The translations under genes were made by a program, and so were the position numbers. The notes below the pieces were generated by a model, which saw only the letters and a program-made list of their open reading frames with translations, was not told where the DNA came from and searched no databases. From Pedobacter sp. BS3 (lineage in GTDB: Bacteria; Bacteroidota; Bacteroidia; Sphingobacteriales; Sphingobacteriaceae): 64,000 nt of DNA. This document shows, in pieces, positions 41,982 to 45,050 of the stretch (positions within the stretch are counted from its first letter, which is position 1; each line of letters starts with the position of its first letter). The stretch is from NCBI RefSeq assembly GCF_008274585.1, contig NZ_VTRT01000001.1:124001-188000 (forward strand), given 5' to 3'.

Positions 41982-42278
41982 TTAAATGTAATTGTTAATC
42001 ACTGCCTCAAGCTCATGTGCCTGCACAACGCCTGACTGCCGCCATTTTGATTCGCCGTTTCTAAACAGGATAAATGTTGGCACACCCTGGATATTCAGAG
42101 CCGATGCCGCCTGCGGGTTTTTATCAATGTCTACTTTAATGATGGTTGCCTTATCGCCGATTTTCTTTTTAACATCTTCTAATATAGGCGACATGACTTT
42201 ACAAGGCCCGCACCAGGTTGCAAAAAAGTCGACTAAAACGGGTTTGTCTGAATGTATCAGCTCTTTAAAACTTGCCAT
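41982..42278 (-). CDS. trxA: Thioredoxin
   Basis: 98 residues, a minimal thioredoxin fold. The redox pair is in [10 protein letters not shown] (Cys 23 and 26), the cis-proline motif is [12 protein letters not shown], and [13 protein letters not shown] lies between. There is no signal peptide, so it is a cytoplasmic general disulfide reductase. It is a separate unit from the prenyltransferase gene. Confidence 0.94.
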
Positions 42279-42579
42279 AACAATTGTTTTTTTATATAAC
42301 CCGTAATTTTAAAGTTAGTTTATGCAGAATAACAATCGCAAATAGTGAAGTTTTAATATTTACTACATGACATTTTTAACCACATAGGTACATAGACCTA
42401 CAATCGTTTCCAAAAAACTTTTTAGTCACACATAAGCCGCTGAAGCAAAGCTTCAGTAGAACTATGTCTCCTTTTAAATCGCTAAAAACCTATGTTTCTA
42501 TCCCGAATCGTTCCTCTCAGGACAAAATGGTGTGGTTTATTATTTTTTGTCATGTACTAAAATTTTGCTGTCCCTTAAC
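42279..42579. other. Spacer upstream of the tRNA-Ser pseudogene
   Basis: 301 bp without a gene. A hairpin CTGAAGC/GCTTCAG lies at 42440-42456, and CGAATCGTTCCTC (42504-42516) repeats 35252-35264. A weak promoter-like AAATTTTG at 42560-42567 sits just before the pseudogene, at the place where the intact tRNA-Ser genes have TAnnTTTG. Confidence 0.5.
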
Positions 42580-42728
42580 GGAGAGGTGTTTGAGTGGTTG
42601 TCCGAAGGCCCCCTTTACCCAAGGGACTCCTTTGGAGGGGAAGGAGCATGCCTGGTCCACGAGACTCCGGAGGAGAAAATGTGTATACGCCAAAAGTGTA
42701 TCGAGGGTTCGAATCCCTCTCTCCGCCA
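42580..42728 (+). pseudogene. tRNA-Ser(GGA) pseudogene with insertions in D loop and anticodon loop
   Basis: The segment matches the intact tRNA-Ser(GGA) at 44765-44855 in order along its whole length, with two inserts. A 40-nt insert (42601-42640) lies after GAGTGGTTG in the D loop. A 20-nt insert (42656-42675) falls in the anticodon loop between GG and A of the anticodon GGA. The 3' acceptor strand lacks 2 nt (CCCTCTCTCC instead of CCCTCTCTCTCC), and the anticodon stem has a C-A mismatch. The variable arm and T arm (TGTATACGCC, GGGTTCGAATCCC) and the 3' CCA are intact. The first insert contains CTCCTTTGGAG, the core of a dispersed hairpin also seen at 63787-63807. Confidence 0.8.
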
Positions 42729-42737
42729 GCAAAAGAG

Positions 42738-42778
42738 AAGCCCGGCAAGAGTGGGATTTTTCCATTTTTGCCGGGCTT
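42738..42778 (+). terminator. Hairpin after the tRNA-Ser pseudogene
   Basis: AAGCCCGGCAA (42738-42748) pairs with TTGCCGGGCTT (42768-42778), an 11-bp perfect stem. The tail is only weakly T-rich. It is the kind of hairpin that follows the intact tRNA genes at 44864 and 45051. Confidence 0.55.
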
Positions 42779-42851
42779 GCTCAAATAAAAGCACTAAGAG
42801 TATGTTTAGAGCCTGTTTAAATTTCAGATAAAGATTTCACAGGTTTAATTA

Positions 42852-42907
42852 ATGGACGGTGAAGACACCGTCCATGGCTTCCTGCCGCTGCTGGTGACAC
42901 CAGCAGC
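42852..42907. repeat. Second copy of the paired-hairpin repeat
   Basis: ATGGACGGTG (42852-42861) and CACCGTCCAT (42866-42875), then GCTGCTGGTG (42887-42896) and CACCAGCAGC (42898-42907), repeat the hairpins at 3862-3922. Flanks GAGCCTGTTTAAATTT and TTTTTAAGCAGGCCC (about 42808-42950) also resemble the ends of that element. A more degraded trace is at about 46748-46785. Confidence 0.65.
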
Positions 42908-42987
42908 TCCTCCGTATAACTTCACGTTTTCTATTTTTAAGCAGGCCCTTATATCTGTGAGGAAATAATTGCATAACTGATCTCAAA

Positions 42988-44562
42988 TTATTTCTTAGAC
43001 TTTTCCGTTAGAGGCCCCCAAGCTGAAGAACTGTTAAATCCACCGGGAGTCACGCTTGCCTCCCATCTTTTATTTAATAATACGGATAGTTCTTCGACTG
43101 TACTCTTATAGTTCTTGTCGCCTGCTACATTGACATTTTCTCCCGGATCAACTTTGTGGTCATATAGCTCTCTTCCCACAATTGCTCCATTAGCTACACG
43201 TATCCATTCTGTATACCGGTAATCTTCTGTACGCATACTATGTCCCATGATTTTACCTCCCTCTCTTGGATATTGACTTAATGCCGCTTCCTTCCATGGA
43301 ATATTGTTATCCAATAGTAAGGGAACAAAACTATTTCCCTGAAGATTGGCAGGGCCGTCGAGCTTACATAGTTGTGTTAAGCTTGGAAATATATCTACGG
43401 TTTCAATTAACTTATCACTCTTTTTGTCGATAGCACTTTCTATCCATGGTACACGAACTACAAGTGGAATATTGGTATCTATTTCAAAGTTGGTATGCTT
43501 AGCCCATCCATGATGCTCTCCTACTTTTGCGGCATGATCGCTCCAGAAAACAACTATGGTGTTTTTGTCTAATCCCTGTTTTTTAAGCTCATTTAAAATC
43601 ATTCCGGTAAGTGCATCGGCGTATGAAATAGATGCCTGATACCCTCTCAATATTATCCTGGCTAAAGAATCGGATACCATTTCCTGATATTTAGGCATGT
43701 TGGCATATCCGTCTATTTCACTTGTTTTATTCATGGAATATTCTAACATGTTTTTCGGATTATAAAAATTATCCGGTAACCGGATACTTTCCGGAGGGTA
43801 CATATCCCAATACTTTTTAGGAGCTCTAAAGGGAAGATGAGTGGAACTCAAACCAACGGCCATAAAAAATGGCTTTCCTCCCTTCTTCAGTTGCTTTAAC
43901 TCACTAATAGCAGCGACAGTACTTTTCCCGTCTGCGTAAGAAGTGTCAGATACATCGGCCATATCCCAGGCAGGTCCTTTTGCCGTTTTCGCTTTAGGAT
44001 GCTCTTGTTGATATTCTGCTATTATTTTTTTGGACTCAGGAGAGAGATATCCTTTTCCAACCCAACTACCTTTAGCCTTGATTGTCTTATCCCAGATCAT
44101 GTTGTCTTCCTTACCGCCTGATACTACTCCTCCTATCTTTACGGTTGTATATCCATTATTGTGAAACACCTGCGTTAGGGTTGTTACGTCAGGACTATTT
44201 TTATGCAAGGGGGTTTGGTTATCATAAACTTTAATTGCATCTGGCCTGAGGCCGGTAAGCAAAGTAAGTCGCGAAGGGTTACAAACTGCCTGATGGACGA
44301 AGCAATGTTGAAACGTAAATCCGGTTTGCGATAGTTTATCTATAGTTGGCGTATGCATATAGTCAGCACCGAAACTACCTAGTCTTTGTGCCTGGACACC
44401 ATCCCATACTATGAGTAAAATATTGGGTTTATCGGGGGCCTGAGTTTTAGTATCTTTTGTACTCCTGACGGTACCGGCTCTTTGAAAACTGCTTAGCAGA
44501 ATAATAAGAGAAAGTAATAGTAAATTGCATAGATAGATCTGCCTGGCTTGTTTTTTTATCAT
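42988..44562 (-). CDS. Secreted sulfatase (iduronate-2-sulfatase-like)
   Basis: 524 residues, with an N-terminal hydrophobic signal or anchor (LCNLLLLSLIILLSSF). The formylglycine motif C-x-P-S-R is present as VCNPSRLTLLTGLRPD (Cys about 94), so the enzyme needs an anaerobic- or FGE-type maturase, not seen in the window. Metal-site parts are NILLIVWDG at the start of the domain and VFWSDHAAKVGEHHGWAKH later. It removes sulfate esters from a glycan, unidentified here. It lies alone between a tRNA-Ser pseudogene and an intact tRNA-Ser, in AT-richer sequence. Confidence 0.9.
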   Translation of the reverse strand: MIKKQARQIYLCNLLLLSLIILLSSFQRAGTVRSTKDTKTQAPDKPNILLIVWDGVQAQRLGSFGADYMHTPTIDKLSQTGFTFQHCFVHQAVCNPSRLTLLTGLRPDAIKVYDNQTPLHKNSPDVTTLTQVFHNNGYTTVKIGGVVSGGKEDNMIWDKTIKAKGSWVGKGYLSPESKKIIAEYQQEHPKAKTAKGPAWDMADVSDTSYADGKSTVAAISELKQLKKGGKPFFMAVGLSSTHLPFRAPKKYWDMYPPESIRLPDNFYNPKNMLEYSMNKTSEIDGYANMPKYQEMVSDSLARIILRGYQASISYADALTGMILNELKKQGLDKNTIVVFWSDHAAKVGEHHGWAKHTNFEIDTNIPLVVRVPWIESAIDKKSDKLIETVDIFPSLTQLCKLDGPANLQGNSFVPLLLDNNIPWKEAALSQYPREGGKIMGHSMRTEDYRYTEWIRVANGAIVGRELYDHKVDPGENVNVAGDKNYKSTVEELSVLLNKRWEASVTPGGFNSSSAWGPLTEKSKK

Positions 44563-44764: not shown

Positions 44765-44855
44765 GGAGAGGTGTCCGAGTGGTTGAAGGAGCACGCCTGG
44801 AAAGTGTGTATACGCCAAAAGTGTATCGAGGGTTCGAATCCCTCTCTCTCCGCCA
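44765..44855 (+). tRNA. tRNA-Ser (anticodon GGA)
   Basis: Class II tRNA. The acceptor arms GGAGAGG and TCTCTCC pair. The anticodon stem-loop is CACGC-CTGGAAA-GTGTG with anticodon GGA, reading UCC/UCU. There is a long variable arm (TATAC...GTGTA), a T arm GAGGG-TTCGAAT-CCCTC, discriminator G, and an encoded CCA. It is followed by a terminator hairpin at 44864-44889. Confidence 0.93.
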
Positions 44856-44958: not shown

Positions 44959-45045
44959 GGAGAGATGCCGGAGTGGTTGAACGGGGCGGTCTCGAAAACC
45001 GTTGTGCGGGTAACCGTACCCAGGGTTCGAATCCCTGTCTCTCCG
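44959..45045 (+). tRNA. tRNA-Ser (anticodon CGA)
   Basis: Class II tRNA. The acceptor arms are GGAGAGA and TCTCTCC. The anticodon loop is CTCGAAA between CGGT and ACCG, anticodon CGA, reading UCG. The long variable arm contains GCGGGTAACCGTAC, the T arm is CAGGG-TTCGAAT-CCCTG, and the discriminator is G. CCA is not encoded (CCT follows), unlike the neighbouring tRNA-Ser(GGA). Confidence 0.93.
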
Positions 45046-45050
45046 CCTTC

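Follow-up and report, generated by a model that had tools for sequence, protein, structure and literature searches.

The window analyzed, a stretch of DNA of 64,000 nucleotides, contains at positions 42580-42728 (forward strand) an interrupted and decayed copy of a tRNA-Ser(GGA) gene, referred to here as the odd copy, which was delimited by its alignment to an intact tRNA-Ser(GGA) gene located 2.2 kb away on the same strand (44765-44855). This working paralogue, which was used as the reference for all comparisons, is accompanied by an intact tRNA-Ser(CGA) gene (44959-45047, forward strand), and both were recognized by ARAGORN and Rfam. ARAGORN called these two intact tRNA-Ser genes alone in the window, and the same result was obtained with Rfam at gathering scores, the odd copy being called by neither. 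On one side of the odd copy lies a thioredoxin gene (41982-42278, reverse strand; PF00085, E 2.1e-28; tblastn), a neighbor that is shared with relatives, and on the other side a sulfatase gene (42988-44562, reverse strand; PF00884, E 4.6e-44) separates the odd copy from the intact tRNA-Ser(GGA); these two labels, as well as that of the polyprenyl synthetase mentioned below, were assigned by Pfam. A 203-bp stretch bearing 14-nt inverted repeats at its ends (42359-42561, unstranded) separates the thioredoxin gene from the odd copy, which is followed by a hairpin with 17-nt arms (42738-42778, forward strand) and by a MITE-like repeat, about 142 bp long, that is bounded by terminal inverted repeats (AGAGCCTGTTTAAA...; 42808-42949, unstranded, ends set by eye).

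As proposed in a previous sequence-only reading of this DNA, the odd copy is colinear with the intact tRNA-Ser(GGA) gene. In a global alignment 85 of the 89 aligned bases are identical, and the alignment score of 128.2 compares with a mean of -3.7 (sd 6.2, maximum 19.6) for 1000 dinucleotide shuffles; homology between the two copies is demonstrated. The coordinates formerly given for the odd copy are correct, and its aligned blocks (42580-42600, 42641-42655, and 42676-42728) are interrupted by two clean inserts, i.e., insert 1, of 40 nt, in the D loop (42601-42640) and insert 2, of 20 nt, within the anticodon (42656-42675), with the boundaries of both fixed to within about one base. The 2 nt that had been described as missing correspond to a deletion that falls within a CT run, on the 3' side of both the T stem and the acceptor stem, and apart from this deletion the long variable arm, the T arm, and the CCA end are identical to those of the intact copy, as had also been claimed. 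The four substitutions are all transitions (three C-to-T and one G-to-A) and, in a cloverleaf reading, they sit in the D and anticodon stems, where pairing persists as G-U at three of the sites and the G-to-A change leaves the anticodon stem with a C-A mismatch. A recognized cloverleaf with an intact anticodon loop, as expected of a functional tRNA-Ser, is absent from the odd copy, which presents instead the features of a duplication pseudogene, i.e., disabling lesions together with an intact paralogue in the same genome.

When the search was made permissive, the 3' part alone of the odd copy was matched, both by RF00005 (17.0 bits, E 2.1 in the genome) and by the tRNA-Sec family (23.4 bits versus a gathering score of 47). 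The top permissive match, a plastid 3'UTR Rfam family on the minus strand that overlies the conserved tRNA 3' part, was rejected, its 36.3 bits being below the gathering score of 68. The intact tRNA-Ser genes of the genome comprise GGA, CGA, GCT, and TGA, and because all of these remain, the odd copy looks dispensable. The sequence-only reading had also suggested that a 3' hairpin and a remnant promoter are retained. The hairpin at 42738-42778 is real, perhaps a former terminator, and by eye it resembles the hairpin that follows the tRNA-Ser of locus L012; a strict terminator scan accepted neither this hairpin nor any other terminator at the odd copy. The promoter proved to be weaker than claimed. 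Of the 15 intact tRNA-Ser genes compared (2 from the window and 13 from relatives), 12 have the motif TAnnTTTG, which we take to be the -7 promoter box of Bacteroidota, in the 35 nt upstream; it was not found in the corresponding interval before the odd copy, where the nearest word is AAATTTTG. The earlier description thus holds except for this promoter remnant.

The same site was then compared in relatives. Both in G001, the one congeneric genome compared, and in G012, an uninterrupted tRNA-Ser(GGA) gene begins close to the start of the thioredoxin gene (at 102 and 88 bp, respectively), and like the odd copy it is encoded on the opposite strand. The corresponding distance in the window is 301 bp, and the 203-bp stretch at 42359-42561 would account for the difference. 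The insertion model had been said to fail if relatives showed no intact tRNA-Ser at this position and the inserts were not repeated elsewhere, and this combination was not observed, since in two relatives the same thioredoxin gene has, at about 100 bp, a tRNA-Ser(GGA) that is not interrupted. The pseudogene reading is supported by the lack of an ARAGORN or Rfam call, the split anticodon, the absence of the -7 box, and the uninterrupted gene of these two relatives. As to the wider distribution of the gene, tRNA-Ser(GGA) was present in 4 of 24 polyprenyl-synthetase loci of relatives scanned with a flank of about 1.5 kb, and a single intact tRNA-Ser(GGA) was present in 7 of 10 larger polyprenyl-synthetase loci that were fetched (the other 3 were without it), those 7 having been chosen for a tRNA-Ser match already known nearby. 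Among the ten fetched loci, thioredoxin was matched only in those of G001 and G012 and the sulfatase in none (tblastn, E 1e-6), and no second tRNA-Ser was found by ARAGORN in any of them.

The 399 family genomes were scanned with a pattern that describes a tRNA-Ser-like gene lengthened by about 40-69 bases, and two of them gave a match, the genome of the window itself and G187. The G187 stretch was rejected as an interrupted homologue since, by eye, the beginning of another tRNA lies within it, so one of the 399 genomes showed the interrupted form in a search that demands exact anchor words and that would therefore let diverged forms, forms with other anchors, or forms with the 20-nt insert alone escape. 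The pattern scan of genome_contigs, a collection that may omit records very near the window, returned four stretches, titled Alphaproteobacteria, Desulfuromonadales, Bathyarchaeota, and Rhizobiales, and no homologue: two are ordinary tRNA-Ser genes (L090 and L093), one keeps by eye a tRNA-like 3' end alone (L091), and one resembles by eye an intron-containing archaeal tRNA (L092). The scan of viral_contigs, which may likewise omit records very near the window, returned four stretches, all of them adjacent Ser and Asn tRNAs, and no homologue. The Bathyarchaeota tRNA-like gene (L092:100-300) is an observation in its own right; its apparent insert in the anticodon region is probably an ordinary archaeal intron, and the gene is not called by ARAGORN.

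Insert 1 consists of a bulged hairpin of 36 nt, TCCGAAGG...CCTTTGGA, plus GGGG. Its outer stem is formed by TCCGAAGG/CCTTTGGA and its inner stem by CCCTT/AAGGG (-16.4 kcal/mol), and 26 of 200 shuffles of the insert alone fold equally well. The pattern TCCGAAGG N10-40 CCTTYGGA, after merging the rows from both strands of one place, was found at four loci of the genome, i.e., at three besides insert 1, versus one forward and one reverse match for the reversed control, and it had no match in the congener G001. The 8-bp outer stem, with both of its arms, is accordingly present at more than one locus of the genome. One of these loci (C22:289443-289478) is, like the hairpin of insert 1, 36 nt long, shares its 8-nt arms exactly, and folds with a z of -3.4; for another (C1:89908), 47 of 200 shuffles fold as well. 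A stricter two-part pattern gave three loci including insert 1 versus none in the control, and when insert 1 was compared by BLAST with the genome the other matches were weak (best E 0.004). The claim that insert 1 carries the core of a dispersed hairpin was confirmed, as it has the CTCCTTTGGAG core common to a larger dispersed hairpin of the genome, and CTCCTTTGGAGNGGG (15 letters, up to one mismatch) gave 31 genome matches including insert 1 versus 0 in the reversed control. Compared by eye with 30 fetched loci of the CTCCTTTGGAG hairpin, which include insert 1 itself (L071) and one locus out of register (L069), insert 1 is without the extended CCCT...AGGG arms of the dispersed family and its usual ctggggtgaggc-like tail. 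The looser pattern CTTTRTCCAWAGGACTCC, from the inner part of insert 1, showed no excess (16 matches versus 16 in the control). The words GTAG and CGTC and their complements are absent, by eye, from 42601-42640, and no target-site duplication was seen at the inserts. The genome contains three Y1 transposase-like matches (Y1_Tnp), and the three hairpin motifs searched, a set to which the TCCGAAGG stem does not belong, are absent from the loci fetched around them (about 3.2-3.3 kb each); within this scope, no link between the hairpin and a Y1 transposase emerged. The BLAST comparison, the core matches, and the outer-stem patterns support that insert 1 would be a small, presumably mobile hairpin repeat of the genome placed in the D loop, the copy number of its own type being low.

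Insert 2 resembles part of insert 1, with 14 of 19 positions alike between 42657-42675 and 42619-42637, a level reached by 2 of 1000 shuffle pairs. It had no BLAST match of its own in the genome, which at 20 nt is a weak test, and it may be either a partial second copy of the insert 1 repeat or a local duplication. The suggestion that a tRNA gene served as target of small palindromic repeats is thus supported for insert 1 alone. The similarity between the inserts also fits an explanation in which both would be local expansions within an already dead gene, with no mobile repeats involved, arising by template switching at palindromes or, for insert 2, by the local copying of a segment of insert 1. 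Palindromes do promote template-switching and duplication errors. However, because insert 1 has a relative of equal length on another contig, its origin is not purely local, and we regard this explanation as rather unlikely.

The two inserts also pair with each other when the full-length odd copy is folded in a model. An 11-bp helix (42627-42637/42665-42675), with pair probabilities of 0.98-1.0, replaces the hairpin of insert 1 (-55.9 versus -49.2 kcal/mol with the hairpin forced), and the acceptor and T-stem pair probabilities are 0.90-1.0. Such a fold could be expected of a functional tRNA-like RNA, comparable to the bacterial pseudo-tRNAs that act outside translation, in which the 11-bp helix joins the inserts and tRNA-like ends are preserved by the acceptor, variable, and T arms; a pseudo-tRNA with a regulatory role has been described (PMC3399842). 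Nevertheless, 115 of 1000 shuffled insert pairs bind equally well, which does not support the co-folding of the inserts, and the whole fold has a z of -1.9, with 7 of 200 shuffles as good. The restriction to 1 of 399 family genomes, the lack of a homologue in the genome_contigs and viral_contigs scans, and the absence of the -7 box likewise argue against this possibility, which appears very improbable, and the odd RNA keeping tRNA ends that had been offered as an alternative received no positive support. Its most specific version, in which a tRNA-derived RNA about 150 nt long and particular to the species would have its two palindromic inserts co-folded in an 11-bp arm and its tRNA ends kept, is harder still to credit; if true, it would represent a new regulatory or decoy RNA made from a dead tRNA through repeat insertion.

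Two further explanations were considered. According to the first, the odd copy would be the remnant of an attachment site, a tRNA 3' end duplicated through the integration of a mobile element, in line with a BLAST match to the intact gene that spans the 3' part alone and with the location between the two copies of a sulfatase gene unmatched in the ten fetched loci of relatives; the 5' half is nevertheless present and colinear, and there is very little chance that this explanation is correct. A tRNA gene with one or two spliced introns is extremely improbable, because, although one insert occupies the anticodon, the usual intron place, splicing would be needed in the D loop as well, the spliced product would still be 2 bases short near the 3' end and carry the anticodon-stem C-A mismatch, and group I introns, the kind known in bacterial tRNAs, are much longer than these inserts of 20 and 40 nt.

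The intergenic stretch around the odd copy has evidently gathered small repeats. The 203-bp stretch includes a 26-nt piece of a dispersed repeat (42499-42524), whose other copies read GAGTCCCGTATCCCGAATCGTTCCTCTCGGGACAGGCAGTACGGG; among the matches listed (E up to 1), 16 of the 22 at other places in the genome are due to this piece. In the region of the MITE-like repeat, at about 42803-42980, fall 42 of the 45 matches listed in the window's own genome, many of them partial and two or three rows representing the same place on the opposite strand (40 of 95 candidates were scored), and neither of the two G001 matches listed falls there.

Other tRNA-derived loci were observed in the same genome (G000). 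At about 546301-546736 of C1 (L104:302-737, minus strand), three identical 120-bp tandem units precede an intact tRNA-Met(CAT), and in each unit the 5' part of that tRNA continues, past the anticodon, into a CCGCCAAAGGGCGG hairpin and ends in a 3' portion foreign to it; these units constitute a second hairpin-bearing tRNA-derived pseudogene in this genome, tandemly amplified. On C12, two tRNA 3'-end fragments located about 39 kb apart (68482-68555 and 107434-107478; L106 and L113) have an exact 33-nt repeat in common and look like the attachment sites of an integrated element, with a 29-bit tRNA match (C12:102764) lying between them.

We consider it probable, with good confidence, that the locus is a redundant tRNA-Ser(GGA) copy, now dead, that was broken among small repeats, one of which lies in its D loop. 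The tRNA-Ser(GGA) gene would have been duplicated, with the odd copy occupying the thioredoxin-adjacent site of the relatives' working gene, and selection would then have been relaxed on one of the two copies. In the order that seems most plausible to us, a small hairpin repeat would have entered the D loop, and a second, related short insert would have split the anticodon; the transitions in the stems, the slippage deletion in the CT run, and the loss of the -7 box may have followed or accompanied the inserts, and the locus presumably yields no product. The retention of the T arm, the variable arm, and the CCA end, and the low number of substitutions between the copies (four, of which three retain a G-U pair), speak against a dead gene, and the involvement of repeats is weakened by the fact that insert 2 has no demonstrated repeat family and that the type of insert 1 occurs at three other loci alone.

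The odd copy clearly exemplifies the presence of a small hairpin repeat within a structural RNA gene, and it illustrates one way in which a redundant tRNA gene copy can disappear. Known biology is little altered by it, and tRNA finders rightly skip it. Among the literature matches listed, no title or abstract opening reports a palindromic repeat within a bacterial tRNA gene, which does not prove that such reports are absent. Bacterial tRNA pseudogenes derived from duplicated tRNA genes do occur, and the odd copy is like them in being a near-identical duplicate by a working paralogue, with a small deletion and a lost promoter box, but it differs from the ordinary ones in the two clean inserts that come on top of point decay. 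Insert 1, being a palindrome inside a gene, can be likened, by description and not by sequence, to the Rickettsia palindromic elements, which are longer and fitted to coding frames. It also recalls the REPs, small palindromic repeats some of which lie within genes according to PMC3733652 (where RPE-1 is also mentioned), since it is a short, dispersed hairpin DNA of the kind that is sometimes intragenic; in contrast to those REPs, it has no GTAG/CGTC word and few copies of its own type, and its host is a tRNA gene. Finally, the pseudo-tRNA tRNA-Other of Bacillus cereus occurs in some Bacilli besides its host and its deletion has a phenotype (PMC3399842), whereas the odd copy was seen in a single genome and no product of it is known; what the two have in common is that both are tRNA-like loci outside translation.
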